Assembly (NCBI RefSeq): GCF_007995065.1
Contig: NZ_VOQR01000001.1
Location: 499,001-563,000 of the forward strand
DNA length: 64,000 bases
Source of the DNA: Sphingomonas ginsenosidivorax
GTDB lineage: Bacteria > Pseudomonadota > Alphaproteobacteria > Sphingomonadales > Sphingomonadaceae
Reading direction: 5' to 3'
Position numbers and translations under genes: made by a program. This document shows positions 28,717-60,867 of this stretch, piece by piece. The stretch's first letter is position 1; every line of letters begins with the position of its first letter. Below the pieces are notes generated by a model. That model worked only from the letters and a program-made list of their open reading frames with translations, was not told the DNA's origin and did no database searches.

Positions 28717-29592
28717 GTGGCGGCGATCGTGTCGACGGTGGCGTATCTGGGGCTGGAAGCGCGCGCCGTCGAAGTGCAGGTGCAGCTGATCCCGGGGTTG
28801 CCCGCGTTCAACGTCGTCGGGCTCGGCGACAAGGCGGTCGGTGAAAGTCGCGAGCGCGTACGCGGCGCGATCGCCGGCATGGGGCTCGCGCTGCCGCCGA
28901 AACGCATCGCGGTGAACCTGTCGCCGGCCGACCTGCCCAAAGAAGGGTCGCATTTCGACCTTCCCATCGCGCTCGCGCTACTCGGCGCGATGGGCGTGGT
29001 CGATGTCGAGACGCTCGCCGATTATGTCGTCGTCGGCGAACTCGGCCTCGACGCGCGGATCACCGCATCGCCGGGTGTGCTGCTCGCGGCGCTTCACGCG
29101 TCGGAGGTCGGCAAGGGGCTGGTGTGCCCCGCATCGCAGGGCGCGGAAGCGGCCTGGGCGGGGTCGATCGAAGTGATCGCCGCGCCCGACCTGCTCGGGC
29201 TCATCAACCATTTCAAGGGCCATGGACTGCTGAGACCCCCGACGCCGGGGGAAGCGGACGAACTGGTTCACGGCCCCGACCTGCGCCAGGTCAAGGGGCA
29301 GGAGACCGCCAAGCGCGCGCTGGAGATCGCAGCAGCGGGCGGGCACAACCTGTTGATGTGCGGCCCGCCGGGTTCGGGCAAGTCGCTGATGGCGTCATGC
29401 CTGCCCGGCATATTGCCACCGCTCGACCCCGCGGAGGCGCTGGAGGTGTCGATGGTCCAGTCGGTCGCGGGCACTCTCACCGGTGGTCGCCTGACGCGAA
29501 CCCGCCCGTTCCGTGCGCCGCACCATTCCGCCTCGATGGCGGCGTTGACCGGCGGCGGTGTGAACGTCTTGGGTCTCGTTGCACTAGCTTGA
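28717..29592 (+). pseudogene. comM: comM/yifB Mg-chelatase-like ATPase, truncated by insertion at about 29,559
   Basis: ComM proteins are ~500 residues. Here the N-terminal Lon-protease-like region (VSTVAYLGLEARAVEVQVQL), RVKGQ/QVKGQETAKRALEIAAAGGHN and Walker A (MCGPPGSGKS) are intact, and PFRAPHHSASMAALTGGG is reached at residue ~281. In homologues this leads to Walker B (LFLDELPEF), but here the frame runs into unrelated sequence and stops nine codons later. The remainder of comM is found in no frame up to 64,000. ComM acts as a hexameric helicase in branch migration during natural transformation (known for Vibrio and Haemophilus), so the host is probably comM-negative. Confidence 0.9.
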
Positions 29593-29628
29593 GTGCTGCT
29601 GCACAGGGCGGGGCTTCCTTGCACTAGC
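29579..29628 (+). repeat. Subterminal direct repeat TTGCACTAGC, two copies 40 bases apart
   Basis: TTGCACTAGC occurs at 29,579-29,588 and 29,619-29,628, within the first 70 bases of the putative element end. Tn7-like transposons carry several such sites near each end for binding of the DDE transposase (TnsB/TniA). The identical decamers and regular spacing fit that role; a function is inferred. Confidence 0.5.
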
Positions 29629-29714
29629 AGCGAGAGAAAGACATTATGCCCGGGTGCTCATATCACGTCCCTTGAACTCGCTGAGAAGGTTGCCCGGGCA
29701 GATCAGTCACTTCT

Positions 29715-30857
29715 TTGCCCCATTCGTCTAGGCCATGGCCCATACGGGTTGAGCCAGCGTCGGGTGAGGCGCTTTCATCGTGGCTTACTCGCATCGGGAA
29801 CTTGCACGATGTTAGTTTCGAGCAGCTGGTTCAAGAATACTTCGGATACAGCGGGAGTTGGTCCGAAATTAATTTTACGAGCGATCTAAATCTTTTGCAG
29901 AATATCTGCAGATTAAGTCGCGTAGAGTTTAATAAAGTTCGTTCGATGACGTTTGATGGCGTTGTTCCATATGCATTTGGCGATAATGCAGGAGGTTTTG
30001 AGGATTACGTTCTAAGTCAGACAGTTTTATTGAAAAGCTGGAACGATCGGCCAAGACTGACACGAAATTCCCTTAAGTGGCGGCCTTGGGGTTTTGGAGA
30101 TCGAGTTCGGGCCTGTCCTCGATGCGTAGGCGAGGATTGCACTATCGCCCTGCGTTTGGACTGGCTGGTTCCAGTTTCACTATCATGTGCCACGCATCAG
30201 TGCTTCCTTCAGGAATGCGTATTTTTACCTGGTCAGTATGTATTGTGGAATCAAACCTTTACAGGCAAGCCGACGCTCGAAATGGTTGAGTTAGATCGTA
30301 TTTCGGGCAACGCTTTTCGCGAGGGGATAATACCCGATCAATTCATTACACCTACACGATGGTTCAGGACGCTCAGAACGTTAGTCGAAGAGCTAATCGC
30401 GCCGGGTTATGTCCATAAAGAAAAACGAAAGTTAATTGCTGAGCTTTGGCACGAATATGGAGACAGAATACTGCGTTTAACGGGAGGATCGTTTGAGCTA
30501 TTACAGTGGATAGATCAGAGAGAGGTGTTGAAGGTGGCTTCTGTTGGAATAGCTCACCTAATTAATACATCATACCAAGAGGTTTTAGGGGTAGAATGGC
30601 CAATTAGATCCGCGGAAGTCAAAAAAGCAGCCCACTACCTAAAAGATGCCTTGGCAACACGAGTATGGAAAAATACTTTAGCAGATGGTGGCTATGACAG
30701 GGCGAAACGAGATTCCTCTTACGCTTCGCTACTAGGGAACATTTTATACTGGCATCGCGACTCGCAAATGGAGCGCGCATGGATGATCGAAATCTATTTG
30801 CAATCGAAAGGGGTTTCAAGTTTCTCAGCTAACGATATTAGAATGTATAAAGGATAG
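29715..30857 (+). CDS. tniQ: TniQ/TnsD-family transposon target-selection protein
   Basis: 380 residues. The N-terminus has the TniQ signature PWPIRVEPASGEALSSWLTRIG; a zinc-finger region follows with RACPRCVGEDC (C-x2-C) and a later CATHQCFLQ (C-x2-H), with the usual RLDWLVPVSLSCATH linkage. TniQ/TnsD proteins recognise the attachment site and recruit the transposition machinery. The start is a TTG with no clear ribosome-binding site; all upstream in-frame sequence is closed by stops. The gene is strikingly AT-rich relative to the window, a sign of transfer. No partner tnsABC or tniAB is adjacent. Confidence 0.85.
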   Translation: MPHSSRPWPIRVEPASGEALSSWLTRIGNLHDVSFEQLVQEYFGYSGSWSEINFTSDLNLLQNICRLSRVEFNKVRSMTFDGVVPYAFGDNAGGFEDYVLSQTVLLKSWNDRPRLTRNSLKWRPWGFGDRVRACPRCVGEDCTIALRLDWLVPVSLSCATHQCFLQECVFLPGQYVLWNQTFTGKPTLEMVELDRISGNAFREGIIPDQFITPTRWFRTLRTLVEELIAPGYVHKEKRKLIAELWHEYGDRILRLTGGSFELLQWIDQREVLKVASVGIAHLINTSYQEVLGVEWPIRSAEVKKAAHYLKDALATRVWKNTLADGGYDRAKRDSSYASLLGNILYWHRDSQMERAWMIEIYLQSKGVSSFSANDIRMYKG

Positions 30858-31116: not shown

Positions 31117-31767
31117 TTAGGGGTGCACGTCTGACATTGCTGCGTCAGCCTCTGCCTGTCGACGGCGATCACGAGCAATCTTGGCGAGCAGCGTTCGACT
31201 GCACCCAGTTGCATCCATTATATCGCGCCAGCTTCGGCCATCGCGAAGAAGGCTCGAGATGGCAGCGTTGCGTGTCTTGTTCTCGGGACGCCCCTTATAA
31301 AGGCCCGCTGCCTTGGCTTTTGCAGTGCCTTCGGCTTGTCGACGACGGCGATCCTCATAATCCTTACGGGCAACCGCGGCGAGTACGTCCAACATCATGG
31401 CGTTGACCGCTGCGAACATTCGGCCGGTGAACTCATCCGTCGGTGCCGTCAGGATCCACGACGTCGGCAGGTCGAGTGCAACAACCCGGACCTGCTTGGC
31501 GTCGATTAGATTGCGCAGCTTGATCCAGTCTGGCGAGGTGAGGCGGGAAAGCCGATCAACCTGCTCGACCAGGAGCACGTCTCCCGGCTCGCAATCCGAC
31601 AGCAGGCGGAATAGCTCTGGCCGGTGGAGCTTGGCTCCACTTTCGTTTTCGACATAGCGGGCCGCAATCCGAAGCCCGTGCTCGGCCGCAAACACGTCGA
31701 GGGCGCTCTTGGCGCGCGACGCATCCTGTTCGGAGGTAGAAGCACGAAGATAGGCTCGGATGAACAT
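31117..31767 (-). CDS. Serine recombinase (resolvase/invertase family)
   Basis: 216 residues. The catalytic serine is in the N-terminal AYLRASTSEQDASRAK (Ser10). Further motifs are LLVEQVDRLSRL, the E-x-x-R-x-x-x-A-like region around DEFTGRMFAAVNAMMLDVLAAVARKDYEDRRRRQAEG, and a C-terminal helix-turn-helix (GRSWRDIMDATGCSRTLLAKI). It probably resolves cointegrates or inverts DNA at a nearby res site. The 260-base gap to tniQ and the 230 bases upstream are non-coding and hold a 12-base palindrome, AGGGTATACCCT, at 31,005-31,016. Confidence 0.9.
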   Translation of the reverse strand: MFIRAYLRASTSEQDASRAKSALDVFAAEHGLRIAARYVENESGAKLHRPELFRLLSDCEPGDVLLVEQVDRLSRLTSPDWIKLRNLIDAKQVRVVALDLPTSWILTAPTDEFTGRMFAAVNAMMLDVLAAVARKDYEDRRRRQAEGTAKAKAAGLYKGRPENKTRNAAISSLLRDGRSWRDIMDATGCSRTLLAKIARDRRRQAEADAAMSDVHP

Positions 31768-34172: not shown

Positions 34173-35528
34173 TCAGGAGCGTGGGCTTCGCGAGGCGCGG
34201 TGTGCCCGCGCCTCGCGAAGCGTCGCGTTCGGGGTGAGGCCGGTCGCCGGCACCTTCGGCACCGCGACGCGCTGCGACAGGTAGATGCCGTTATGACCGG
34301 AGCAGAGGTAGGCGACGAAGCAGGCCACCGCGATCGGCACCGCATAGGCAGCGCCGAACAGTTCGATGCCCATGAAGGTGCAGGCGAGCGGGGTGTTGGC
34401 CGCGCCCGCGAACAGCGCGACGAAGCCGAGCGCGGCGAATACGCTGGTGGGCACGCCGAACATGGGGGCGAGTGCGTTGCCGAGCGCCGCGCCGATGAAG
34501 AACAGCGGTGTCACCTCGCCACCCTTGAAGCCGGCGCTGAGCGTGACGACGGTGAACAGCAGCTTGATCGCCCAGCTCCACGGATGCGTGTCCGGTCCGA
34601 AGAAGCTGGCGATGGTGAGGCTGTCGGGCGTCGCTGCCAACGTGCCGAGTCCGAGATAGTCGCGCGTTCCGAACAGGTAGACGAGCGCGATGACCGCGAT
34701 GCCGCCAATGGCGGGGCGTAACGGGCCATAGGAGACGATGCGCTTGAGCCACCCGCCGAGCGTGTGATTGGCTTCGGCGAAGGCGAGACCGACCAGCCCG
34801 AACGCAACCCCGGCGACGCCCGCCTTGGTGACGAGCAGCGCATCGACCGGCACCAGCGCATCGATCCGGTAGACGCCGTGATGGATGCCCCAGGCAAGGC
34901 ACGTCCAGTCGCCGACCAGTGCCGCGACCAGGCACGGCACCAGCGCGCGATATTCGACACGCCCGATCGCCAACACCTCCAGTGCGAACACCGCCCCTGC
35001 GATGGGCGTGCCGAACACCGCGCCGAACCCGGCCGCAATGCCCCCCATCAGCAGGATGCGGGTGCCGTCAGCATCGAGCTTGAGCGCGCGACCGAAACCG
35101 CTGGCGAGACTGCCGCCCAACTGGACGGCGGTGCCTTCGCGCCCGGCCGAACCGCCAAACAGATGGGTCACCACCGTGCCGAAGAAGATCAGCGGTGCCA
35201 TCCGCAGTGGCACCCCCCCGCCCGGTTCGTGGATCTGCTCGACAATAAGGTTGTTGCCGCCCTCCACCGAGCGGCCGGTCAGATGGTAAAGCAGTCCGAC
35301 CACGAACCCGCCGATCGGCAGCAGGTAGAGCAGCCAGGGAAAGGCAAAGCGAAGCCGGGTCACGGCATCGAGGCTCCACAAGAAAGCCGCGCAGAGCGTT
35401 CCCACCATTGCGGCCATCGGGACCAGGATCAAGGCCCATCGCAGCACCGACATGGCATGGGTGCGGCGATCGCGAATGAACGCTGCCATGTTGAACTGGT
35501 CGTAGAGATTGCGAAATGTCGCGCGCAC
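34173..35528 (-). CDS. CLC-family fluoride/chloride channel or antiporter
   Basis: 451 residues with about ten hydrophobic segments. The CLC anion-pathway motif [19 protein letters not shown] is clear, with [25 protein letters not shown] and [20 protein letters not shown] following. The GTG start has an excellent AGGAGG four bases upstream. A fluoride riboswitch about 30 bases further upstream indicates a CLC-F-like exporter that removes fluoride from the cytoplasm (inference from the riboswitch plus known biology). The downstream DUF190 and TauE genes are broken. Confidence 0.9.
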
Positions 35529-40650: not shown

Positions 40651-41523
40651 ATGACCCTGGAGCAACTCAGAATATTCGTCGGTGTCGCCGAGCGCGAACA
40701 CGTCACCAAGGCAGCGGAGGTGCTGAACGTCACGCAGTCCGCTGCCTCCGGCGCGGTCGCGGCCCTCGAAGCGCGCTACGGGGTTCCTCTGTTTCACCGT
40801 GTCGGGCGTGGCATCCAGCTGACCGAAGCAGGCCGCGGCTTTCTGGAGGAAGCGCGCGCAGTGCTGGGGCGGGCAGCGCATGCCGAGACGATGCTGGCGG
40901 ACTATGCCGGGCTTGCCCGTGGTTCGTTGCGGATCGTCGCAAGCCAGACGATCGCGAGCTACTGGTTGCCGGCAAAGCTCGCCTCCTTCTACGAACGCCA
41001 CCCGCAGATCGCGGTCGAACTGGCGATCGACAACACCGAAGGTGCAGCAGCGCAGATCCTGAGCGGCGCGGCGGAGCTCGGTTTCGTCGAGGGCGAGGTG
41101 GACGAACCGGCGCTCGCCCTCTGGAATGTCGGGCGTGACCCGATGGTGCTGGTCGGCCATGAGGACGCCGGGCGCGTCGACGAGGACTGGCTTCGCGCTG
41201 CACGCTGGATCGTCCGCGAGCAGGGTTCGGGCACGCGCTCGACCTTCGAGGACGTGCTGCGAACGCGCGGGTTTGATCCGGCCCAGCTGACAGTAGCGAT
41301 GACGCTGCCGTCCAACGAGGCGGTGCGTACCGCGGTCGAGGCCGGTGCCGGCGTCGCTGTGTTGTCGCGATTGGTCGTCGCACGCGCGCTCAAGGCCGGC
41401 GATCTGGTCGAGTTGCCGCTTGGGTTACCCGATCGCGCCTTCCACGCGCTGCGCCACAAGGAACGCTATCGCACCCGCGCGGCCGACGCGCTGACGGACC
41501 TCATCAAGGAGCAGGTCGCATGA
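40651..41523 (+). CDS. LysR-family transcriptional regulator
   Basis: 290 residues. The HTH is MTLEQLRIFVGVAEREHVTKAAEVLNVTQSAASGAVAALE; the effector domain follows (LRIVASQTIASYWLPAKLASF). It probably controls the divergent sulfite oxidase gene and the transporter/sulfite dehydrogenase genes downstream, perhaps in response to sulfite or sulfate (inference). ATG 40651 gives the standard N-terminus. The stop overlaps the next ATG (ATGA). Confidence 0.93.
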   Translation: MTLEQLRIFVGVAEREHVTKAAEVLNVTQSAASGAVAALEARYGVPLFHRVGRGIQLTEAGRGFLEEARAVLGRAAHAETMLADYAGLARGSLRIVASQTIASYWLPAKLASFYERHPQIAVELAIDNTEGAAAQILSGAAELGFVEGEVDEPALALWNVGRDPMVLVGHEDAGRVDEDWLRAARWIVREQGSGTRSTFEDVLRTRGFDPAQLTVAMTLPSNEAVRTAVEAGAGVAVLSRLVVARALKAGDLVELPLGLPDRAFHALRHKERYRTRAADALTDLIKEQVA

Positions 41524-42671
41524 CTGCCGACGCACCTTCGGCCCTGACCGGCCTCAAGCCGCTAAGCAGGCTCGATCACCCGCGCGAGATGATCCGCCAG
41601 TTCACACCCAACTGGTTCGCCGCGACGATGGGCACCGGCATCCTCGCTCTCGCGCTGCCGCAGGTGCCCAATATCGGCCCCGCGCTCAAACCGATTGGCG
41701 AGGTGTTGTGGTTCTTCAACATCGCGCTCTTCATCCTGTTCGCCGGTCTCTATGGCGCGCGCTGGGCGATGTTCGGGCATGAGGCACGGCGCATCTTCGG
41801 CCACAACACCGTGTCAATGTTCATCGGGACCATTCCGATGGGCTTGGCGACGATCATCAACGGATGCCTCGCCTTCGGGATCGCGCGGTTCGGTAACGGC
41901 ATCGTGCCGGTCGCACACGTCCTGTGGTGGATCGACGTCGCCATGTCGCTCGCCTGCGGCGTGTTGATCCCCTACCTGATGTTTACCCGCCACGAGCACA
42001 GCCTGGACGGCATGACTGCGGTATGGCTGCTGCCGGTCGTCGCAGCGGAAGTGGCGGGTGCCAGCGGCGGGCTGCTCGCGCCGCATCTGACCGATCCTCA
42101 CGCGCAGATCGTGACGCTCGCCACTTCCTACGTGCTGTGGGCCTATTCGGTGCCGGTCGCGTTTGGCATCCTCGCTATCCTGATCCTGCGCATGGCGCTC
42201 CACAAGCTCCCGCACGAGAGCATGGCGGCATCCTCTTGGCTTGCGCTGGGGCCGATCGGCACCGGGGCGCTGGGTATGCTGGTGCTTGGGGCGGATGCGC
42301 CGGCGATCCTCGCGGCGCATGGGCTGGTCGGTGTCGGTACCGTCGCGCAAGGGATCGGCGTCGTCGCCGGGCTCTGTCTGTGGGGTTTCGGCCTGTGGTG
42401 GCTGGCGCTCGCGACGCTCATCACCATCCGCTACTGGCGCGCCGGCGTCCCATTCAACCTTGGCTGGTGGGGCTATACCTTCCCGCTCGGCGTCTACACC
42501 GTCGCCACCTTCCGCCTCGGTACGACGCTGAACCTAGGCTTCTTCGGTATTGTCGGCACAGTGCTGACGGTCGCGCTCGCGGCGATGTGGCTGCTGGTCG
42601 GTGCCAAGACACTCGCCGGAGCATGGCGCGGCAACCTGTTCGTCTCGCCCTGCATCGCTACCCCGAACTGA
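41520..42671 (+). CDS. SLAC1/TehA (TDT) family anion transporter, probable sulfite efflux
   Basis: 383 residues with ten hydrophobic segments, starting with QFTPNWFAATMGTGILALAL and ending with NLGWWGYTFPLGVYTVATFRLG, the family hallmarks shared by yeast Ssu1 sulfite pumps, TehA and plant SLAC1. The setting, between a LysR gene and two sulfite oxidases, suggests sulfite export (inference). Co-translated with the regulator. Confidence 0.85.
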   Translation: MTADAPSALTGLKPLSRLDHPREMIRQFTPNWFAATMGTGILALALPQVPNIGPALKPIGEVLWFFNIALFILFAGLYGARWAMFGHEARRIFGHNTVSMFIGTIPMGLATIINGCLAFGIARFGNGIVPVAHVLWWIDVAMSLACGVLIPYLMFTRHEHSLDGMTAVWLLPVVAAEVAGASGGLLAPHLTDPHAQIVTLATSYVLWAYSVPVAFGILAILILRMALHKLPHESMAASSWLALGPIGTGALGMLVLGADAPAILAAHGLVGVGTVAQGIGVVAGLCLWGFGLWWLALATLITIRYWRAGVPFNLGWWGYTFPLGVYTVATFRLGTTLNLGFFGIVGTVLTVALAAMWLLVGAKTLAGAWRGNLFVSPCIATPN

Positions 42672-45655: not shown

Positions 45656-46060
45656 CTATGCAGAAGGAGCAAGTGCCTCGATGATCCGGCAGTCGGCGAC
45701 GGTGTTGCGGCTACAGGAATCTATCAGCGCGTCGAGTTCACCAGCAAGCGCGGTGAGGTCTACGATTTTGCGCCTGATCGCGTCGCGGTGTTGGTTGGCA
45801 ACGACATCGACGGCGATGCAGGACTGATCGCGCCGATCGGCCAGCCCCATAAGCTCGCGTACCTGATCGATTGAAAAGCCAAGATCCCGCGCACGCCGAA
45901 TGAAGGACAGGCGGCGCAGATGCGCGCCCTCATAGGTCCGATAGTTACTCGCCGATCGCGCAGGTGCGGGCAGTAAGCCAATCTGCTCATAGTAGCGGAT
46001 CGTCTCGACCTTCGTGCCCGTCGCACCGGCCAGTTTTCCGATCGTAAGTTTCTCAGACAC
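45656..46060 (-). CDS. MerR-family heavy-metal regulator (PbrR/CadR-like)
   Basis: 134 residues from GTG 46060. The winged HTH is LTIGKLAGATGTKVETIRYYEQIGLL; the metal-binding cysteines are Cys81, Cys116 and Cys124, a C-x34-C-x7-C arrangement close to PbrR/CadR (Pb, Cd, Zn). It is divergent from a CDF exporter and binds the intervening operator to switch it on when metal is present. An upstream in-frame ATG at 46093 would read through the operator and is less likely. Confidence 0.92.
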   Translation of the reverse strand: MSEKLTIGKLAGATGTKVETIRYYEQIGLLPAPARSASNYRTYEGAHLRRLSFIRRARDLGFSIDQVRELMGLADRRDQSCIAVDVVANQHRDAIRRKIVDLTALAGELDALIDSCSRNTVADCRIIEALAPSA

Positions 46061-46065
46061 AACGC

Positions 46066-46096
46066 TTGACCCTCTAGCGACTAGAGGGTGCATATA
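46066..46096 (+). promoter_or_regulatory. MerR-type promoter/operator with 19-bp spacer
   Basis: TTGACC (-35, 46,066-46,071), a 19-base spacer containing the near-palindrome CTCTAGCGACTAGAG, and CATATA (-10, 46,091-46,096). The long spacer is the hallmark of promoters that MerR-type activators unwind on metal binding; the sequence closely follows the PbrR/CadR operators. It drives the CDF gene and, in the other direction, the regulator. Confidence 0.85.
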
Positions 46097-46129
46097 GGCT
46101 GTCAGATCGATTCTATCGAGGTGGCGAAC

Positions 46130-46792
46130 ATGGCCTGCACAAGCTGCGCGTCCGACAAGGCGGGTACTCTCAACGACCCCAAGTGGCGGCGCGCGCTATT
46201 GATCGCGCTCGCCATCAATGGCGGCATGTTCGTTATCGAAATTGCGGCCGGCATCACGGGTGGATCGAAGGCCCTGCAAGCCGACGCGCTCGACTTTTTC
46301 GGGGATACTGCGAACTACGCAATCAGTCTTGGCGTTGCCGGGATGGCGATAGCCTGGCGCGCACGCGCTGCGATGTTGAAGGGGGCGACGCTTGCTTTGC
46401 TAGGCGTCTATGTCCTGTTCGCAGCGGGATGGGGTGCGCTCCACGACGCAACGCCCCATGCCGAAATTATGGGCGTAGTCGGCATCGCCGCGCTGATCGC
46501 GAACCTTGTGGTCGCGGTCATGCTGTACCGCTTCCGAAGCGGTGATGCGAACATGAGGTCGGTATGGATTTGCTCGCGCAATGACGCGATCGGCAACATC
46601 GCCGTCGTACTGGCCGCAGGCGGCGTGTTCGGCCTCAACAGTGCGTGGCCTGATCTTGCCGTCGCCGCCTTGATGGCGGTGTTGGGAATATCGGGCGGTT
46701 TTCAGATCATGCGGCAGGCGCGCGCCGAAATGCGTAGCGAGCCCTCACCCGCCCCCGCTACTTACCAGCAGTCGTTACATGGCAGTCGGTAA
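46130..46792 (+). CDS. CDF-type cation efflux protein
   Basis: 220 residues. A Cys-rich N-terminus (MACTSCASDKAG), then about six TM segments: ALLIALAINGGMFVIEIAAG, ADALDFFGDTANYAISLGVA (metal-binding Asp residues) and SRNDAIGNIAVVLAAGGVFG with Asn-Asp in place of the usual His-Asp. It lacks the long cytoplasmic C-terminal domain of CzcD. It exports Zn2+, Cd2+, Pb2+ or Co2+ against protons; the regulator type favours Pb/Cd/Zn. Confidence 0.88.
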   Translation: MACTSCASDKAGTLNDPKWRRALLIALAINGGMFVIEIAAGITGGSKALQADALDFFGDTANYAISLGVAGMAIAWRARAAMLKGATLALLGVYVLFAAGWGALHDATPHAEIMGVVGIAALIANLVVAVMLYRFRSGDANMRSVWICSRNDAIGNIAVVLAAGGVFGLNSAWPDLAVAALMAVLGISGGFQIMRQARAEMRSEPSPAPATYQQSLHGSR

Positions 46793-47212: not shown

Positions 47213-48475
47213 ATGCACCGTTTTATTGCGGCCTTATTGGCCGTGGCGTCGTGCGCGTCGATCGCGCAAGCGCAGTCAGCCGATCCCACATCGACCAGTC
47301 CCCCGCTCACCCTTGATCAGGCGCTTTTACTTGCCGGAGCGACCGCCCCCAGCCTTGAGGCTGCCACAGCAGGCGTCCGGGCAGCAGAGGCAGGCCGCAC
47401 GGTTGCCGGCTACCGCCCTAACCCGTCGATCGTCGCCGAGACCGAGAACATTGCTGGCAGCGGTCAATATCGGGGCCTTCGCAGCGCCGAGACAACGGCA
47501 GGTCTGGCACTACCGATCGAACTGGGTGGAAAACGATCGGCACGGATCGCTGTCGCAGATGCGATTGGTAATCGAGCGAGGATAGGCACGGCGTTGGCCG
47601 CGGCCGATCTACGGCTTGCCATCACGCAGCTCTACATCGAGGCGACCGCAGCGGAACGCCGACTGGTGACCGCGCGCGAGCAGGCCGGTATCGCCCGCGA
47701 AGCATCGCGCGCAGCCGGCGTCCGCGTTCAAGCGGGGCGAGCATCACCGCTCGAACAGCAGCGCGCCGATGTATTGCGGATCAACGCGGAGACGGCTGTG
47801 GAGCGCGCAGAGCGGCTTGCCGAGGTCGCGCAAAGTAATCTTGCCCGACGGATCAGCCAACCCCTCACGGGACCGTTGGACTTGGCGTGGTTCAATCGCG
47901 TCGAGGGCTTTGGTCCGGCACGGCCGATCGAGACCGCAGGGACGTTGGCATTGGCAGCGACCCGCGCAGACGTGACAACGGCAGAGGCACAGGTGCGGCT
48001 TGCCAGGTCGCAACGCATTCCCGACGTGACACTCAGCGCCAGCGCACGCCGGCTTGAGGCTACGAACGACGTGGCAGCGGTGTTCGGGGTGTCGATCCCG
48101 TTTCCGCTGTTCAACAACGGCAAGGCGGCAGTGGCGCAGGCGCGGGCGCAGACCGATCAGGCGCAGGCGCTACGTCGCGTCGCCGAGCTGGATACCGCGC
48201 AGGATATCGCAAGCGCACAGGCAAACGTCGCGAATGCCGCGACGACCGCTCGTAACGCCAGCGGGCCGGCATTGGCATCGGCAAGCGAAGCCGCTCGTAT
48301 TGCCCGGATAGGCTACCGGGAGGGCAAGTTTGGGCAGCTCGATTTGCTCGATGCCGAACGTACCCTGTCCGAAACACGAACCGCCGCGATCGATGCGCTC
48401 GCCACCTATCACGACGCCAAGGCACGCCTCGAACGGCTCGTTGCCGCAGCGCCCTCGCCCGAGGAAACCAATTAA
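47213..48475 (+). CDS. czcC: CzcC-type outer-membrane efflux protein (TolC family)
   Basis: 420 residues with a signal peptide (MHRFIAALLAVASCASIAQAQ) and the two-fold OEP repeat of long helices (LTLDQALLLAGATAPSLEAA; EAARIARIGYREGKFGQLDLLDAERTLSETR). It forms the outer-membrane duct of a metal-exporting CzcCBA complex. The stop is immediately followed by the czcB start (shared base). Confidence 0.9.
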   Translation: MHRFIAALLAVASCASIAQAQSADPTSTSPPLTLDQALLLAGATAPSLEAATAGVRAAEAGRTVAGYRPNPSIVAETENIAGSGQYRGLRSAETTAGLALPIELGGKRSARIAVADAIGNRARIGTALAAADLRLAITQLYIEATAAERRLVTAREQAGIAREASRAAGVRVQAGRASPLEQQRADVLRINAETAVERAERLAEVAQSNLARRISQPLTGPLDLAWFNRVEGFGPARPIETAGTLALAATRADVTTAEAQVRLARSQRIPDVTLSASARRLEATNDVAAVFGVSIPFPLFNNGKAAVAQARAQTDQAQALRRVAELDTAQDIASAQANVANAATTARNASGPALASASEAARIARIGYREGKFGQLDLLDAERTLSETRTAAIDALATYHDAKARLERLVAAAPSPEETN

Positions 48476-49644
48476 TGACGAAGATCATCATACGGGCGCT
48501 CGCGCCTGTGACCCTGGCTATCCTCCTTGCCGGGTGCGGCGGGGGTAGCAACAGCGAGGCCGGTGAGAAGGCCGGAGCCGAGAAGACCGAAGGTGCCGAG
48601 GCCGGCGAAGCCAAGGAGGGTCCAAAGGATATCGTCACCCTGTCCGCGCAGCAGATCGCGGATGCCGGGATAGAGGTTACGCGACCTACAGTAGGCGGCG
48701 TGGCCGGAGCGATCGAGCTATCGGCAACGATCGAGGGTGATCCTCAAGGCGTGCAGGTCGTGTCCACCTCCGTAGGCGGTCGGCTCGTTTCCCTCACCCG
48801 CAATCTCGGGCAGTCAGTCAGCCGGGGAGACCCGCTGGCTATCATCGAAAGCCGGGAAGCGGCATCACTGAAAGCGGAGGTAGAGGCTGCGCGCGCGCGT
48901 TCCGCACTCGCCCAATCGAACCTTCGCCGCGAACAGCGCCTGTTTGCCGAACGCGTTTCGCCGGAGCAGGATCTGGTTGCAGCGCGGACGGCAGCGACGG
49001 AGGCCAGTATTGCCCTTCGCCTCGCGCAGCAGCAGTTGTCAGCGACGGGCAGCGGAGGCGGTGCGCTCAACCGCATCGCGGTTCGTTCGCCGATCGCCGG
49101 CCAAGTGATCGCGCGATCGGCCACCCTCGGGCAAGCCGTCGCGGCCGATGCAGAGCTGTTCCGCGTCGCCAATCTGTCGAAGGTCACTGTCACCACATCA
49201 CTCGTCCCCACCGATGCCGGTCGGGTGAAACCCGGCGTGCGTGTCGAAGTAACGGCACCGGGGCGGCGTCAGGAGGGGCGTGTTACGTTCGTGTCCCCCA
49301 TTCTGGACGAGACGACGCGATTGGTGCCGGTGATCGCCACCCTCGACAACGCCGGCAGCACATGGCGCGTTGGTGAGACGGTCAACGTATCGATCCTCGT
49401 TCCAGCGACCGGGGACCGTACCGTTGCTGTACCATCGGCCGCAGTGCAGATGATCGAGGACAAGTCGTTTGTGTTCGTCCGCACCGCGACAGGTTTCCGG
49501 GCAATTCCGGTGACGCTTGGCCGCACTAATGGCGGGCAAGTCACCGTAACGGCAGGCCTTACCGGCTCGGAGCGCATCGCTTCCACCAACAGCTTCACGC
49601 TCAAAGCCGAACTCGGCAAGGGTGCGGGCGGGGATGAGGACTGA
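48475..49644 (+). CDS. czcB: CzcB-type membrane fusion lipoprotein
   Basis: 389 residues. The lipobox (ILLAGC) anchors it to the inner membrane; an Ala/Glu/Lys/Gly linker follows, then the HlyD-type core with GGRLVSLTRNLGQSVSRGDPLAIIESREA and AVRSPIAGQVIARSATLGQAV, a helical hairpin and a beta-barrel. It links CzcA to CzcC. It lacks the long His-rich N-terminus of some CzcB proteins. Confidence 0.92.
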   Translation: MTKIIIRALAPVTLAILLAGCGGGSNSEAGEKAGAEKTEGAEAGEAKEGPKDIVTLSAQQIADAGIEVTRPTVGGVAGAIELSATIEGDPQGVQVVSTSVGGRLVSLTRNLGQSVSRGDPLAIIESREAASLKAEVEAARARSALAQSNLRREQRLFAERVSPEQDLVAARTAATEASIALRLAQQQLSATGSGGGALNRIAVRSPIAGQVIARSATLGQAVAADAELFRVANLSKVTVTTSLVPTDAGRVKPGVRVEVTAPGRRQEGRVTFVSPILDETTRLVPVIATLDNAGSTWRVGETVNVSILVPATGDRTVAVPSAAVQMIEDKSFVFVRTATGFRAIPVTLGRTNGGQVTVTAGLTGSERIASTNSFTLKAELGKGAGGDED

Positions 49645-49647
49645 GCC

Positions 49648-52600
49648 ATGATCGGTCGCATCGTCACCCTCTCCGTCGAGAAGCGCTGGCTCGTCCTGCT
49701 TCTCACTATCGCGGCTGCATTGCTCGGGATTGGCGCGCTGCGTCAGCTTCCGATCGACGCCGTACCCGACATCACCAACAACCAGGTGCAGATCAACGTC
49801 GTTGCTCCTGCCCTCTCCCCCGATCAGATCGAGAAGCAGGTTGCGTTCACGGTCGAAACCGCGCTCGCGGGCATTCCCGGTCTTGAATATACCCGCTCGC
49901 TAAGCCGCAATGGCTTTGCCCAGATCACAGCGGTTTTCGGTGAAAAGACCGATATCTACTTTGCGCGGGCGCAGGTCGCGGAACGCCTGCGAACCGCAGA
50001 GGAAGACCTTCCCGAAGGTGTGAACCCCGAGATGGGGCCGATCGCCACGGGCCTTGGCGATATCTTCATGTGGACCGTCGAATACCGCGAGCTGGATCAG
50101 GTCCATCATCGCAACGGGGAACCTGGCCTGCAACGCGATGCCAGCTATATCACCCCCGAGGGGGATCACCTCGTCAGCGACGCCGACAAGGCGACATATC
50201 TGCGCACCGTGCAGGATTGGATCGTCACGCCGCAGCTCAAAAGCACGGCCGGGCTTGCTGGCGTCGACTCCCTTGGTGGCTACACCAAGGAATATCTCGT
50301 TATTCCGGACATACAGCGCATGGCGGCAATGCGGCTAACGCTTCAGGATCTCACCACCGCCCTACAGCGCAGCAATACCAGCGCGGGCGCTGGCGTGGTC
50401 AACCGCAACGGCGAAGGGTTGGCGGTTCGATCGGATGGGCGTGTCCGCAACGCCGACGAGCTGGCCCGTACCGTCGTTGCCACCCGCGAGAGCGTTCCAA
50501 TACTGCTCAACCAGATCGCGACCGTTCGCACCGGGCAGGCGCTACGCATGGGATCGGCGTCGGAAAACGGTCATGAGGTCGTCGTTGGGACCGCAGTCAT
50601 GCGGATCGGGGAGAATAGCCGCACGGTGTCGACGGGCGTTGCCGAACGGCTGACGCAGATCGGCCGCTCGTTACCGGTCGATGTTGTCGTGAAGCCGGTT
50701 ATGAACCGGACCGAGCTGGTGAACTCCACGATCGCCACGGTTGCCCGCAACCTTGCCGAGGGTGCGGTGCTGGTGATCGTCGTTCTGTTTGCCCTGCTTG
50801 GCAATTTCCGTGCGGCGTTGATCGCGGCCTGCGTCATTCCGATCACGATGCTGTTGACCAGCATCGGCATGTTGAAGGCGGGTGTTTCGGCCAATCTGAT
50901 GAGCCTTGGCGCGCTCGACTTTGGTCTGATCGTGGATGGCGCGGTCATTATCGTGGAGAACGCATTACGGCGTTTGGGCGAGGCGCAGCATGGTCGCGAT
51001 GACGTGCTGACGATCGAGCAACGTCTCGGGATTGTCGCCGCATCGGCGCGCGAGATGATCCGGCCATCGGTGTACGGGCAGGCTATCATCATCCTTGTCT
51101 ATGCGCCGTTGCTCACCTTCACGGGTGTCGAAGGCAAGATGTTCGAGCCGATGGCGCTGACAGTCATCATCGCTCTGGTGTTCGCCTTCATCCTGTCGCT
51201 GACCTTCATACCGGCAGCGATTGCGATCTGGCTCAGCAAACGGGTTGAGGAAAAGGAAAGCCGCGTCGTCACGTTCCTACGGCAGCGCTATGAGCCGGGA
51301 CTCGATGCGGCAATGCGCCGACCCACCCTCACTATCGGCGTCGCGATCGGTGCGCTGGCACTCGCCGGGGCTGCTTTCACGACATTGGGGCAGGAGTTCT
51401 TGCCGCAGCTCGATGAGGGCAACATTCTCGTTCAGGCGGTCCGCATCCCCGGCACATCGGTCGATCAGAGCCAGGCCATGCAATTCCAGGTGGAAAAGGC
51501 ACTCGCCAAGGCCCCTGAGGTCCGTTTCGCCTTCTCCCGCACCGGCACGTCCGAAATCGCATCGGACCCAATGCCGCCTAACGCGACCGACACCTTCGTC
51601 ATCCTGAAGCCGAAGAAGGAGTGGCCCGACCCCGGCCTGTCCAAGGGAGAGCTGGTGGAGCGGCTGGAAAAGCGTCTCTCCACCCTGCCGGGCAACGCCT
51701 ATGAGATCACGCAGCCGATCCAGATGCGGTTCAACGAGCTGATCGCGGGCGTGCGCGGCGACATCGCGATCAAGGTCTTTGGCGATGACTTTGGCGAGAT
51801 GAACGCGACCGCAGATCGGATCGCCGGCATCCTTCGAAAGACGCGGGGTGCAGCAGACGTGCGGGTTGAACAAACCGAAGGTTTGCCGATGCTCGATATT
51901 CGGCCGAACCGCACCGCCATGTCCCGTGTCGGGGTAACGGCGGGTGACGTGCAGGACACGGTTGCCACAGCCATTGGCGGCCGACAGGCTGGTGTGATCT
52001 TTGAAGGCGATCGTCGCTTCCCCGTCGTGATCCGGATGGCGGAAAGCTCAAGATCCGATCTGACGGCGGTTGCTCAGGTCCCGGTGCCGACCGGCAGTGG
52101 CGGCTTCGTACCGCTATCGACCGTGGCGGATATCGCGGTGGTCGATGGTCCCAACCAGATCAGTCGCGAGAACGGCAAGCGGCGTGTCGTGGTGCAGGCC
52201 AACGTGCGCGATCGAGACGTGGCCGGTGTCGTGGGTGATGCCCGGTCAGCCATCGACGCTCAGGTGAAATTGCCGCCCGGCACGTATCTCGAATGGGGCG
52301 GTCAGTTCGAGAACCTTGCATCCGCCCGCGATCGGCTCAGCGTTGTGGTGCCGATCTGTTTCGTGGTCATCATGTTCCTGCTCTACGGCGCGCTAGGCTC
52401 CGTCAGGGATGCGTTGATCGTGTTTACCGGCGTTCCGCTGGCGTTGGTCGGAGGCATCCTTGCGCTGGTGCTAAGAGGCATGCCGTTTTCCATTTCAGCG
52501 GCAGTCGGCTTCATCGCGTTATCAGGTGTCGCGGTTCTCAACGGGCTGGTCATGGTGTCGTCCATCCATGATCTGATGCGGCAAGGCATTGATCGTGCGG

Positions 52601-52881
52601 TAGCGGCGCATCAAGGCGCTCTGGCGCGGCTCCGGCCGGTTGCGATGACGGCGCTCGTTGCGTCGCTTGGCTTCGTTCCGATGGCACTTGGTCATGGTGC
52701 TGGAGCCGAGGTGCAAAAGCCGTTGGCGACCGTCGTCATTGGTGGCCTGATATCCGCAACGTTGCTCACCTTGTTCGTGCTGCCGACGCTCTACGCTCGT
52801 TTCGGACGGCGCGAGTTGCCAGCTCCATCAGGGAAACACATCGAACTGCCGCCTTCGGCTCATGACAGCGTGAGGGCTTAA
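49648..52881 (+). CDS. czcA: CzcA-type heavy-metal RND permease (HME family)
   Basis: 1,077 residues, full length. The HME signature DFGLIVDGAVIIVENALRR in TM4 (proton-relay Asp and the DFGxxxDGA pattern) is diagnostic. TM1 begins VEKRWLVLLLTIAAALLGI; QLPIDAVPDITNNQVQ and the later ALSGVAVLNGLVMVSS are standard. It pumps divalent cations (Co2+, Zn2+, Cd2+ or relatives) out through CzcC. The ATG is 3 bases after the czcB stop. Confidence 0.96.
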   Translation: MIGRIVTLSVEKRWLVLLLTIAAALLGIGALRQLPIDAVPDITNNQVQINVVAPALSPDQIEKQVAFTVETALAGIPGLEYTRSLSRNGFAQITAVFGEKTDIYFARAQVAERLRTAEEDLPEGVNPEMGPIATGLGDIFMWTVEYRELDQVHHRNGEPGLQRDASYITPEGDHLVSDADKATYLRTVQDWIVTPQLKSTAGLAGVDSLGGYTKEYLVIPDIQRMAAMRLTLQDLTTALQRSNTSAGAGVVNRNGEGLAVRSDGRVRNADELARTVVATRESVPILLNQIATVRTGQALRMGSASENGHEVVVGTAVMRIGENSRTVSTGVAERLTQIGRSLPVDVVVKPVMNRTELVNSTIATVARNLAEGAVLVIVVLFALLGNFRAALIAACVIPITMLLTSIGMLKAGVSANLMSLGALDFGLIVDGAVIIVENALRRLGEAQHGRDDVLTIEQRLGIVAASAREMIRPSVYGQAIIILVYAPLLTFTGVEGKMFEPMALTVIIALVFAFILSLTFIPAAIAIWLSKRVEEKESRVVTFLRQRYEPGLDAAMRRPTLTIGVAIGALALAGAAFTTLGQEFLPQLDEGNILVQAVRIPGTSVDQSQAMQFQVEKALAKAPEVRFAFSRTGTSEIASDPMPPNATDTFVILKPKKEWPDPGLSKGELVERLEKRLSTLPGNAYEITQPIQMRFNELIAGVRGDIAIKVFGDDFGEMNATADRIAGILRKTRGAADVRVEQTEGLPMLDIRPNRTAMSRVGVTAGDVQDTVATAIGGRQAGVIFEGDRRFPVVIRMAESSRSDLTAVAQVPVPTGSGGFVPLSTVADIAVVDGPNQISRENGKRRVVVQANVRDRDVAGVVGDARSAIDAQVKLPPGTYLEWGGQFENLASARDRLSVVVPICFVVIMFLLYGALGSVRDALIVFTGVPLALVGGILALVLRGMPFSISAAVGFIALSGVAVLNGLVMVSSIHDLMRQGIDRAVAAHQGALARLRPVAMTALVASLGFVPMALGHGAGAEVQKPLATVVIGGLISATLLTLFVLPTLYARFGRRELPAPSGKHIELPPSAHDSVRA

Positions 52882-57397: not shown

Positions 57398-59323
57398 ATG
57401 AACGATCTTCACCCTGCGATCGGTTTCCGTTGCCTAGCAGGCATGTTCGATTACAAGCCTGTGAAGGGCACAAGGGGGAACGGTTTGTCGGCACATTCTT
57501 CAACGTCGGCATGGGTACGTTTTCTACGCAACTACGGCCCCATTCCCACGAACGACAACATGTACGACGAATCTATTCAGCGTGCGTTGAAGCGTCACAA
57601 GATCGCCCCGATAACGCTGCCGGCGCCATTGGTTGGTCGGCTCGTCGCGAACTTCGAAGGCGAGAATGCCATCTCGCACATCATCACCGGCACCGCGGGC
57701 GACGGTAAGACGTACCATTGCCGGGAAGTCTGGACCGCCCTTGGCGGCGACGCTGGTGTATGGAATGCGGGAGACAAGGTGCAGACCCTCAAGGTCGGCA
57801 GCCGGACGCTCGTGATCGTCAAGGACCTGAGCGAACTTCGTGAGGACGAGAGCGCCGAGATCATCGTCGCCTTCGCCCGCGACGTCGCCGATCCCGCGGC
57901 CGCGACGACCTACCTTCTAGCCGCCAATCATGGACAGCTCCTGGAGAAGCTCAAGTCCGCGCCGCCGAGCCCCGAGGTCGAGCGCGTCACCGCCGTCGTT
58001 GAGGAACTGCTGGTGACTGGCAGGAACCCCGATGCCGGGATCTCGGTCGGACTGGACGATCTCAGCCGATCGCCGGCCGCGGAGATGGCGATGCAGATCA
58101 TCGAGGAGGTCACCTCCCACGATGGCTGGGAAGGTTGTGGAAGCTGCGCCGCCAATGCGGGCGATGGCATCTGTCCGATCTTCGAGAACCGCCGGCGTCT
58201 GACGGGGAAGGGGCCCGACGACCCCTTCAGGCGGCGCATCACCGCTCTCATCGAGCTGAGCGAGCGGAACGGCAACCACTTCCCCGTCCGGCAGCTGCTC
58301 GCACTGGTCGCCAACAGCATCCTGGGGCACCCCGACGCCCGTGACGGCCTGATGAGCTGCGCCGAGGTTCCGGCGATCGTCCAGAGCGGAAAAGCGGACC
58401 GCGCGAGCATCTACCGCAACATCTTCGGCGAGAACCTTCGGCCAAGCAAGGCGGAGAAGACCGAGCTCTTCCGAAAGCTGAACATGTTCGGCATCGGGGC
58501 CGAGACCAGCAACCGCGTCGACAATCTGCTCGTCTACGGTGCCGACGACCCCGCCTATGCGGACGACTATGCTCGGCTGGTGCTTGCTGATCCGATCTAC
58601 GGTGCGACCCCTTCGTATGTCGGCGCACAGCGCGTCTATCTGGAGGGTGCGGAGGGCACCGACCGCCGCGCGTTCCTCGGCGCCCTTCGCGCGCAGCGGC
58701 AGCGTCTGTTCTTCACCATGCCCGACGAACTGGCCGCGACGTACGATCTGTGGGATCTGACCGTCTTCCGGTATGCCGGTCTCTACCTCGACGTGGCGGC
58801 GAAGGTCGCGGACAGGCAGGCGGTGCCGCGACAGGCCGTGTCGATGGTCGTGCGCGGGTTGAACCGCATCTTCACGGGCATGCTGGCGCAGAACCAGGAC
58901 GAGCTGGTTCTCGCGACGTCGGGCAGCTACTCGCAATCCAAGCGCAGCCCGCTTCTCGACGAGCTGATCTCGGTCCCTCGGCAGGGCGGCGAGGAGGTGT
59001 CGATCATAACGGACGGCGCGGGCGGCTTCTGCGTGTCGGTCAAACTCGTGCGCGGATCCGAGATCCCTCCCGTGACCCTGTCGCTTTCGCCCACCCGGTT
59101 CGAGTTCCTCGGCCGCGTCTCGGAAGGCGCGCTGCCGAGCAGCTTCTCGCTCGAGTGTCACGAGGACCTCCTCGCCTTCAAGGCGCGGCTGCTCCGGGAG
59201 ACGGAGAACCGTCGCAGGCTCGATGGTGATGACGAGATCAACGAGGGAGAGCTGATGCTCCGGTTCATCGACCTGGCCGGTGACGGTCGAGCGGTCGCTC
59301 GTCGCGTGGTGGTGCGGATATGA
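57398..59323 (+). CDS. P-loop NTPase with Cys cluster, DptF-like
   Basis: 641 residues (587 if started at ATG 57560). Walker A GTAGDGKT at residues ~98-105 after NYGPIPTNDNMYDESIQRAL, which extends upstream of the later ATG and favours the longer start. A probable Walker B is TLVIVKDLSEL. A Cys cluster GCGSC...GICPIFENRR lies about residue 250. P-loop plus this cluster and the following gene order resemble DptF, the ATPase of phosphorothioation-dependent restriction. The call is by resemblance only. The stop overlaps the next gene by 4 bases. Confidence 0.6.
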   Translation: MNDLHPAIGFRCLAGMFDYKPVKGTRGNGLSAHSSTSAWVRFLRNYGPIPTNDNMYDESIQRALKRHKIAPITLPAPLVGRLVANFEGENAISHIITGTAGDGKTYHCREVWTALGGDAGVWNAGDKVQTLKVGSRTLVIVKDLSELREDESAEIIVAFARDVADPAAATTYLLAANHGQLLEKLKSAPPSPEVERVTAVVEELLVTGRNPDAGISVGLDDLSRSPAAEMAMQIIEEVTSHDGWEGCGSCAANAGDGICPIFENRRRLTGKGPDDPFRRRITALIELSERNGNHFPVRQLLALVANSILGHPDARDGLMSCAEVPAIVQSGKADRASIYRNIFGENLRPSKAEKTELFRKLNMFGIGAETSNRVDNLLVYGADDPAYADDYARLVLADPIYGATPSYVGAQRVYLEGAEGTDRRAFLGALRAQRQRLFFTMPDELAATYDLWDLTVFRYAGLYLDVAAKVADRQAVPRQAVSMVVRGLNRIFTGMLAQNQDELVLATSGSYSQSKRSPLLDELISVPRQGGEEVSIITDGAGGFCVSVKLVRGSEIPPVTLSLSPTRFEFLGRVSEGALPSSFSLECHEDLLAFKARLLRETENRRRLDGDDEINEGELMLRFIDLAGDGRAVARRVVVRI

Positions 59324-60867
59324 CGATCGAGATACTGCCGCGCCCGACGAGCTTTGACGATCGGAGCGGGCCTGACTTCTGGATCGACGAGGCGATCTGG
59401 GGGCACCGTCTGTACGACGAGCAGACCCCGTGGTTGACCTTCCTGGAGTTCATGACCGTGCTGCTCGCGGAGCACCGGGAGGGGCGCGCTCTTCGCGAGG
59501 ATGCGTTCAACAGCCTGTCCTACCGTCCGCAGCTCCAGCTCCGTCTGCGCAATCTCGTGTTCAACAACCCGCACATCATGACCGTGCTGGCGGAGGATCG
59601 TGCGGATGACGCGTCCTGGACGAGCTGGCTCGAAAAGATCACGGAGACGGCGGGTGGCCTCGACAAGCCGGATTTCACGTATCTCCGCGATCGCTTCGAG
59701 AGCTTCCAGGACTTCGCGGCCGTGATAGGTTTCCTCCAGGGGTCGGCCATCGAAGGGACCAGCAACAAGCGCTGGAGTTCGAAGTTCGTCTTTCCGTTCG
59801 GTCCGAACGCCCTCTACGAGGATGCGAACGTCAATCCGCGCGGCGGGGTGTCGAACGACCGCCGCTTCTTCGCCCGCACCGGCGAGCTACTCTATCTGAT
59901 GCTGTGCCGGAGCCGCGATGCGGATGCTCTACGCGGCCTGCTCGTCAGCCGGTTCCTCGAGAACGCTGCGCCCTACGACCGCATGGCGCGCGCCATCCAG
60001 GGGGACGCGCAGCTGGCGAAGTCGGAGCGCGCGGGGGCGTTTCTGCCATGCGCGTCCCACCCGCTGTTCGACCGTCTCGCCGAGGACTGGCTGGCGATCC
60101 TCAGCCTGCCGATCCCCGCATATGACGCCATACCGCATCTGGTGACGATGACGGGGCTGAACATGATGCTTTATCAGCTCGAACGTGCCCGTGATGTGCT
60201 CGATCAGGATCCGGTGCGACTGGTCTGCGAGATCGTCTCGCCGAGGAAGTCGGTGGTGCGCGACCTCTCGGCGGATTCGTATCAAAGGAACAACGGACTG
60301 CCGCAGCAGGCGGTCGACCGCTTCATCCGGCAGATCGCCGAGACCGAGGAGTGGCAGGCAGCGACAGCATCCGACGATCCCGTCCTGAACGCCGGCGACA
60401 TTCTTCGAAAGGCCTTCGGATGGCCGGACGCGGATGACGACGACATCGCCCCCGACCCGGCCGCGCTCATCGAACAGCTCGCGGCGCGCGCGCTCAGTCG
60501 GCACAAGCAGCACATCGGCAAGATCCACATGACGTGGTCGCGCGCAATCGGGCTTTCCTCGCGTCGGTCAAGCCGCCGGGTCCGCTACGCCCCGACCGAT
60601 CGTCTGCTGAAGACGCTCGTGGTGTGCTCGGTCTCAAAGCGTCTCGAGTTCCGGGATTTCCTTGCACTGCTCCACGATCGCTACGGCATCGTGATAGGCG
60701 ATGCGCAGGCCCGCGATTTCGTTGCGAGCGGTGACGCCGATCAGGAGGACTTCTCGGATAACGCCCGTCGGCTCGAGGAACGGCTGGCGAGCCTGGGCCT
60801 GTTGAAGCGGCTGTCGGACTCCTGCGCCTATGTCGAAAATCCCTTTCAGCGAGCCCAAGCCGCGTGA
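59320..60867 (+). CDS. Uncharacterised 515-residue protein, DptG-position
   Basis: 515 residues, soluble. No clear catalytic motif is visible; the N-terminus is WGHRLYDEQTPWLTFLEF, and the C-terminal ~100 residues look helical and winged-helix-like (FLALLHDRYGIVIGDAQARDF). Translationally coupled to both neighbours (ATGA and GTGA overlaps). By position and size it would correspond to DptG, but I cannot confirm this from sequence. Confidence 0.6.
   Translation: MTIEILPRPTSFDDRSGPDFWIDEAIWGHRLYDEQTPWLTFLEFMTVLLAEHREGRALREDAFNSLSYRPQLQLRLRNLVFNNPHIMTVLAEDRADDASWTSWLEKITETAGGLDKPDFTYLRDRFESFQDFAAVIGFLQGSAIEGTSNKRWSSKFVFPFGPNALYEDANVNPRGGVSNDRRFFARTGELLYLMLCRSRDADALRGLLVSRFLENAAPYDRMARAIQGDAQLAKSERAGAFLPCASHPLFDRLAEDWLAILSLPIPAYDAIPHLVTMTGLNMMLYQLERARDVLDQDPVRLVCEIVSPRKSVVRDLSADSYQRNNGLPQQAVDRFIRQIAETEEWQAATASDDPVLNAGDILRKAFGWPDADDDDIAPDPAALIEQLAARALSRHKQHIGKIHMTWSRAIGLSSRRSSRRVRYAPTDRLLKTLVVCSVSKRLEFRDFLALLHDRYGIVIGDAQARDFVASGDADQEDFSDNARRLEERLASLGLLKRLSDSCAYVENPFQRAQAA

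Follow-up and report, generated by a model that had tools for sequence, protein, structure and literature searches.

Elements that target comM have been described in Acinetobacter as carriers of resistance islands (Tn6022/AbaR). Passages of PMC10293859 describe Tn6022 as inserting in comM with the help of TnsF and TniQ, a 10-bp stretch within the Walker B motif being required, and TnsF as an inactive tyrosine recombinase that serves as the comM selector. According to passages of PMC11406308, nearly all comM-targeting elements have TnsE, and members of the Tn5053 family mostly have one TniQ and target resolution sites that are abundant on plasmids. In the same source and in sections of PMC8649781, the loss of TnsA and the gain of a resolvase are equated with replicative transposition via a cointegrate; these sections of PMC8649781 also state that TnsA-less elements usually carry a resolvase. 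Dual TniQ/TnsD elements, as described in parts of PMC10293859 and PMC11406308, have two selectors, one of them being a chromosomal-site selector in many CASTs.

In Sphingomonas ginsenosidivorax, comM was found to be split by a 66,658-bp Tn7-like element that extends from position 29559 of the window (the whole stretch of 64,000 nucleotides that was analysed) to C1:595216. The features at its left boundary are as follows.

28717..29558, plus strand: 5' portion of comM, 280 codons plus two bases, containing Walker A; PF13541 and PF01078
29554..29558, no strand: GGCGG, the 5-bp target duplication on the left side (its right counterpart is at C1:595217-595221)
29559..29640, plus strand: left end of the element, the TGTGAACG tip and three subterminal repeats (29579, 29599 and 29619)
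29715..30857, plus strand: TniQ1, 380 aa; PF06527 at 1.3e-21; placed by the TniQ tree in its Tn402-type branch; putative second target selector
31117..31767, minus strand: small serine resolvase; PF00239 at 2.5e-24; catalytic residues kept in an alignment (Y, R, S and D-R-L-x-R)

A previous interpretation made from the window alone (the sequence-only reading) had claimed that the comM frame is canonical, is then broken, and is cut by a Tn7-like element. This proved to be right. The gene is canonical from 28717 to 29558, after which the frame is lost and about 10 foreign codons lead to a stop (ORF 28717-29592). The 3' part of comM, for which that reading had proposed a search, lies outside the window at C1:595217-595888 (in L011); it contains LFLDELPEF and directly follows ...TTCCACA, the matching transposon end. 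The second half of PF01078 was matched at C1:595199-595558, about 66.7 kb past the 5' part. The near junction reads ...GGCGGCGG/TGTGAACG and the far junction ...AAGCTTTCCACA/GGCGGGCTGAAG, and the target duplication of about 5 bases that had been anticipated is GGCGG on both sides. When the element and one GGCGG were taken out, an open comM of 502 codons resulted, and comM was full-length in 5/5 other same-genus genomes of the family sample, as the suggested comparison with relatives had foreseen. An intact comM elsewhere in the genome, on whose absence the sequence-only reading depended, was not present: other matches to the ChlI / Mg_chelatase family exist, but PF13335, the C-terminal domain of ComM, matched only once in the 2 contigs (4.14 Mb), at C1:595580-595867, so there is no second comM. 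Since the split falls between Walker A and Walker B, ComM function has probably been lost.

The tips of the element are TGT...ACA. The TGT tip that had been noted begins at 29559 with TGTGAACG, the repeated subterminal decamer TTGCACTAGC occupies 29579-29588 and recurs at 29619-29628, a related site lying between them at 29599, and the tniQ gene that had been placed about 150 bases downstream starts at 29715, 156 bp inside the tip. YTGCAY sites were located 21, 41, and 61 bp from the left tip and 21, 65, and 87 bp from the right tip, with none on the other strand in either end; 0.29 sites would be expected by chance in both ends together (mononucleotide shuffles). Their places were partly kept in relatives whose end sequences differ, namely, CROZ (21, 41, and 138 left; 21, 65, 82, and 87 right), Leaf20 (21 and 61 left; 21, 66, and 88 right), Leaf10 (21 and 41 left; 65 and 87 right), and Leaf9 (21, 36, and 41 left; 87 right). 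This comparison covered 7 elements, two having ends identical to those of our element; the left end is identical in Leaf34 and PP-CE-1A-559.

Transposition genes were found at both ends. From the right tip inward, they encode TniA/TnsB (586 aa), TniB/TnsC (303 aa), and TniQ2 (323 aa), and from the left tip inward, TniQ1 and then the serine resolvase (216 aa). TniA matched PF09299 (2.8e-8), PF09039 (2.3e-7), and rve (8.2e-4, under its Pfam cut-off), TniB matched PF05621 (3.7e-60), and TniQ2 matched PF06527 (2.7e-26). TniQ1 and TniQ2 were the only two places in the genome with a TniQ family match. The locus therefore has the features of a Tn7-like element (a DDE transposase, an AAA ATPase and TniQ, a 5-bp duplication, TGT..ACA ends, and subterminal repeats) together with the gene features of Tn5053/Tn402 (tniA, tniB, tniQ, and tniR without TnsA). 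An integrase island was considered as well and ruled out, because the ends, the duplication, and TniABQ fit a transposon. Two points are added to the earlier interpretation: TnsA is absent while a resolvase is present, and the TniQs are two, not one. No such element was described in the titles and abstracts listed for TniQ with a resolvase or serine recombinase and for comM in sphingomonads, in a collection that covers few subscription journals, and the terms "resolvase," "serine recombinase," and "Sphingomona" are absent from the main text of PMC10293859.

Like Tn6022/AbaR, the element has TnsB, TnsC, and TniQ at one end, lies in the same stretch of comM, and is flanked by a 5-bp duplication; the comM insertions of Acinetobacter sp. 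NIPH 2100 (GTGGC) and Pedobacter sp. Hv1 (GTATC) lie 1 bp and 4 bp further on, respectively. Unlike Tn6022, it is without TnsA, no TnsF was found, and it has a serine resolvase and a second TniQ at the other end. The lineage had been proposed to be separate from that of the Tn6022-type elements of Acinetobacter, and this was upheld by a TniA that is 33% identical to that of Tn6022 and belongs to a clade of its own in the TniA tree (100/99). TnsA (PF08722) was found in 0/9 genomes (our own and 8 relatives) and in 8/8 genomes with other comM-inserted Tn7-like elements (two of Acinetobacter, those of Pedobacter and Pseudoalteromonas, and G208, G160, G164, and G055). In G522, the end of TniA is separated from the tip by about 0.1 kb, too little to accommodate TnsA. 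A tblastn search with one Acinetobacter TnsF gave no match in the element or near TniA in eight relatives. The TnsE profile PF18623 was silent in 17 genomes and in all 14 controls alike and is hence no measure of absence, and NCBIfam at an E of ≤0.01 gave no name to TniQ, TnsF, or three TnsE-like proteins. A small serine resolvase was found near the left tip in 8/10 members and further inside in Leaf34, the PP-CE-1A-559 element being covered on either side of its middle.

The element is like Tn5053/Tn402 (tniABQR) in that it has TniA, TniB, TniQ, and a resolvase without TnsA and in that TniQ1 falls in the Tn402-like TniQ branch. Because TnsA is absent and a resolvase is carried, its transposition chemistry resembles that of Tn5053. 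It differs from Tn5053/Tn402 in that its TniA and TniQ2 are on the comM side of the trees, it has two TniQs, it is 66.7 kb long, and this copy sits in comM, in contrast to the insertion of Tn5053/Tn402 at plasmid res sites. Dual TniQ/TnsD elements (Tn7-like elements and CASTs) would share the feature of two selectors in one element; however, their genes are described as lying in tandem or one of them works with CRISPR, whereas the TniQs here are at opposite ends and in different tree branches.

A search of the species collection with TniA gave 8 loci with homologues 55 to 100% identical, all from Sphingomonas sp. (among the best 80 of 182 loci): Leaf34, PP-CE-1A-559, CROZ-RG-20F-R02-07, Leaf20, Leaf10, Leaf17, Leaf9, and TREG-RG-20F-R18-01. 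In 8/8 of these relatives comM was split, with matches to its first part ending at residues 282 to 295. TniQ2 was matched at an E of ≤1e-40 in 14 of 295 same-genus genomes, i.e., our own, eight that agree with the named Sphingomonas loci, the tenth member G522, whose comM was interrupted at that place as well, and four that are more distant. Among the last, comM was split at the same nucleotide in G311 (duplication GGGGG, TnsA present) and near residues 390 to 392 in G414 and G337 (the first match reaching 447 in G337), and it was full-length in G355. TniQ2 was 57 to 100% identical across the clade. The left tips were at one comM nucleotide in 10/10 members (our own and nine same-genus genomes). 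The 5-bp duplication was legible on both sides in 9/10 members, Leaf10 being without comM beside the right end. Its letters track the allele of the host, with GGTGG in Leaf9 and GGCGG in the other eight, which fits separate insertions. In Leaf34 and PP-CE-1A-559, TniA, TniB, and TniQ2 were 99.7 to 100% identical to our own, pointing to recent spread. No clade member was found on a plasmid among the matches listed in a TniA search (at least 5,000 records, all <60% identical; best, 43%).

In the 85-row TniA tree, from which 5/89 loci were omitted because the extracted ORF was <350 aa (L140, L148, L149, L162, and L169), nine TnsA-less Sphingomonas elements formed one clade (100/99), and the Tn402-like TniA row was placed apart from our TniA, in a branch of 58 rows (99/97) none of which is a comM element. 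The comM label required at least 3 changes on this tree, and 0/500 shuffles were as good. In the 61-row TniQ tree (ORFs of <200 aa dropped, proteins cut at 450 aa, the G055 row filling 15% of the columns), TniQ2 belonged to a 23-row branch (100/99) with all 17 TniQs of comM-inserted elements and 6 others for which insertion in comM is not known. TniQ1 was in the opposite branch, that of TniQ from tniA-tniB-tniQ plasmid elements, within a 32-row set (97/90) that includes a Tn402-like TniQ. For both trees, the software warned that long branches meet, in the TniQ tree also on the side of TniQ1, and the terminal branch of G208 had a length of 4.2 in the TniA tree; the support values therefore overstate how secure the deep placement of TniQ1 and G208 is. 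A tblastn search with TniQ1 matched 557 plasmid records, none covering 80% of TniQ1, and the plasmid TniQs were 30 to 34% identical to it (best 10 of 557). The two plasmid loci inspected were both tniA-tniB-tniQ, one with a recombinase gene after tniQ. TniQ1 had no resolvase or HTH match, and its AlphaFold2 model had a pLDDT of 39.6 (7 sequences, 69 to 99% identity), reaching ≥50 only from about residues 6 to 80.

A TniQ-type gene was present at the left tip in 10/10 members, and two profiles for the left module together matched all ten. The TniQ1 type was found in four (our own, Leaf34, PP-CE, and CROZ, the last 42% identical). In the other six (Leaf20, Leaf17, Leaf10, Leaf9, TREG, and G522), the gene is on the opposite strand and encodes a fusion in which about the first half of a TniQ domain is followed by a resolvase-like region and then a resolvase HTH; profile searching of 7,994 scored candidates gave 8 proteins of this type. 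In the five fusions that were scanned, the TniQ half-domain gave E values from 1.3e-4 to 0.03, none of which reaches the Pfam cut-off, and HTH_7 matched at 1.1e-10 in Leaf10 and 0.024 in TREG. The Leaf20 gene has an in-frame stop after 194 codons. A model of P0129, which is near-identical to the Leaf10 fusion, had a pLDDT of 66, and its top Foldseek match was Tn3 resolvase on site III (E of 1.2e-7; TM 0.29 by query and 0.50 by target), with gamma-delta resolvase next. Alignment of the fusion with the clade's own resolvases by hhalign gave a probability of 93.7% over residues 104 to 269. In 12/12 aligned fusion rows, among them two pairs of near-duplicates, other residues take the place of the arginine located two positions before the catalytic serine and of the final arginine in D-R-L-x-R; the first arginine of that motif is replaced in 11/12, whereas resolvases retain these arginines (6/6). 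In one subgroup (six rows), the arginine at place 44 (resolvase numbering) is kept and a serine lies one residue off the catalytic place, so whether the serine is lost hinges on how the rows are aligned; for the other subgroup, the register is unsure. The resolvase half of the fusion is thus predicted to be degenerate. A search for a counterpart of the left module in the fetched pieces of TnsA-bearing and other comM elements (G208, G311, G160, G164, G055, G125, Acinetobacter, Pedobacter, and Pseudoalteromonas) gave weak TniQ or resolvase hits only, with an E of 0.004 or worse.

A mosaic was also seen between 29559 and 35528. The tips, TniQ1, and TniABQ2 of our element match Leaf34 and PP-CE, and its resolvase (98%) and the genes that follow are shared with Leaf9 and G522 (comparison with loci L184 and L213), which bear the TniQ-resolvase fusion in place of TniQ1.

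The ends, the 5-bp duplication, the split comM, the machinery at both ends, and the use of one nucleotide in 10/10 members are direct observations. As a mechanism, we consider it fairly probable that homing to comM via TniQ2 is combined with replicative transposition with a resolvase and with TniQ1 as a second selector. TniQ2, TniB, and TniA of the right end would recognize comM. With TnsA absent, transposition would be replicative, and the cointegrate would be resolved by the element's serine resolvase. TniQ1, which is of the Tn402/Tn5053 type by descent, would be a second selector for another target, probably resolvase res sites carried by plasmids; the idea rests on its descent and on the sister fusion, whose domains would point at resolvase sites as well. 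The second TniQ would then stand in for TnsE, providing a plasmid route besides the home site, and the left selector would be swappable, its slot being filled in sister elements by the fusion of TniQ with a degenerate resolvase.

The left slot protein differs in six members and the nucleotide is unchanged, which makes a role of the left slot in choosing comM improbable. The strongest candidate for the comM selector is TniQ2, because two left modules go with one nucleotide and TniQ2, TniB, and TniA are common to all members. In addition, that nucleotide is the insertion point in the TnsA-bearing G208 and G311, whose right-end TniQs are 34% and 42% identical to TniQ2. It is unlikely that the left TniQ (TniQ1 or the fusion) selects comM and TniQ2 serves another target. 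The left tip does carry a TniQ-type gene in every member, and a degenerate resolvase could act as the inactive recombinase TnsF does for Tn6022, as described in passages of PMC10293859; however, two very different left modules would need to pick one nucleotide, and G208 and G311 do so with a right-end TniQ and no left partner in the fetched ends (12.9 and 12.9 kb of the ~47-kb insert of G208; 14.5 and 15.5 kb of the ~37-kb insert of G311). We regard it as equally improbable that an unrecognized TnsF-like partner encoded by the cargo chooses comM and that TniQ2 serves as a hub, as in Acinetobacter Tn6022. TniQ2 is short (323 aa), and the TniQ of Tn6022 requires TnsF according to parts of PMC10293859; against this, the 2 kb after TniQ2 contain on the same strand only a 125-aa ORF overlapping a deaminase gene, and the tblastn search with one TnsF query was negative in the element and near TniA of eight relatives. 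Very unlikely is a left TniQ that is a role-less passenger from an older nested Tn5053-like insertion, for although left modules were swapped between relatives (the resolvase and following genes being common to Leaf9 and G522, TniQ1 and the ends to Leaf34 and PP-CE) and the Leaf20 fusion gene is broken by its stop, a TniQ-type gene kept there in 10/10 members despite differing sequence argues for a use.

This TnsA-less lineage homes to nearly the same comM nucleotides in Sphingomonas as known comM elements do, with a second TniQ of the other branch. A hybrid lifestyle, in which one TniQ homes to comM, an exchangeable second TniQ hunts res sites on plasmids, and the fusion forms a new class of selector reading res sites directly, is put forward tentatively. 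If these roles are true, the element illustrates how swapping of target selectors may lead to a home-plus-plasmid lifestyle. Like TnsF, the sister fusion would be a recombinase stripped of catalytic residues that has seemingly been taken up for target selection; unlike TnsF, this putative selector has a serine resolvase fold and is joined to half a TniQ. Two kinds of recombinase would then have been recruited for DNA targeting, the inactive tyrosine recombinase TnsF and a degenerate serine resolvase.

The cargo in the window comprises the following.

34173..35528, minus strand: ClC-type chloride channel (PF00654)
41520..42671, plus strand: SLAC1/TehA-type anion channel (PF03595)
45656..46093, minus strand: MerR-family regulator (PF13411/PF09278)
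46088..46792, plus strand: cation-efflux protein (PF01545)
47213..52881, plus strand: RND efflux operon (PF02321, PF00873), with an outer-membrane protein (47213-48475), an unprofiled middle gene (48475-49644), and the pump (49648-52881)
57398..64000, plus strand: Ssp phosphorothioation defense, SspF, SspG, and the start of SspH (PADLOC; SspF 1.4e-238, SspG 4.5e-221)

Beyond the window (L010), the rest of SspH is followed by SspD, C, B, and A (PADLOC; SspH scored on the L010 part), and the Ssp set of the island is SspA-D and SspF-H. The right part of the cargo encodes an impB/mucB-type protein, a DnaE-type polymerase, and a deaminase. The first two, at L011:1876-7602 (C1:582876-588602), are ImuB-DnaE2 mutasome-like; the ORF at 1876-2637 of L011, before the impB/mucB-type gene, has no Pfam match and might be ImuA. 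The codon scores of TniQ1, TniQ2, TniB, and TniA ranged from -85 to -34 and most cargo ORFs were positive, with a score trained on ten genes of the stretch (four of them window cargo and one in L011) that favors cargo; four other island ORFs, including 54780-55595, 77423-79099, and 80958-81620, were negative.

Within this family, comM is a hotspot for insertion. Of 298 same-family genomes, 30 had an insert of ≥1 kb in the gene on one contig (our own and 29 of the 51 re-searched; L054-L092). By tblastn at 1e-8, 13 inserts had a large serine recombinase, 9 had an IS1595-type transposase, and 5, our own included, were Tn7-like; 3 were left untyped (G102, G125, and G232), and Pfam was applied to examples. 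The decayed insert of G125 (L082) begins at the comM nucleotide used by our element (...GGCGGCGG/TGAAAACAG); a resolvase is present, tblastn gave no TniA, and its far side is without comM up to residue ~424. A second TnsABC-TniQ lineage (G160, G164, and G055; L087-L092) is inserted at comM residue ~394 with the duplication GCCGA. In it, tniQ is faced by an ORF of 559 to 585 aa, which is named by no Pfam or NCBIfam model (G160 scanned) and is perhaps TnsE. The IS1595-type elements, 3 to 13 kb in length (L071-L075 and L078-L081), occupy two comM places only, residue ~240 (5 genomes) and Walker B LPEFQ (4 genomes). Their tip resembles GGCATTATGTAGCAA in 8/9, that of G162 being different, and an 8-bp duplication, GARGCRCT or GARTTYCA with letters that follow the host, was present on both sides in 8/9 (not G281). 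For an IS1595 transposase, site specificity of this kind seems unusual.
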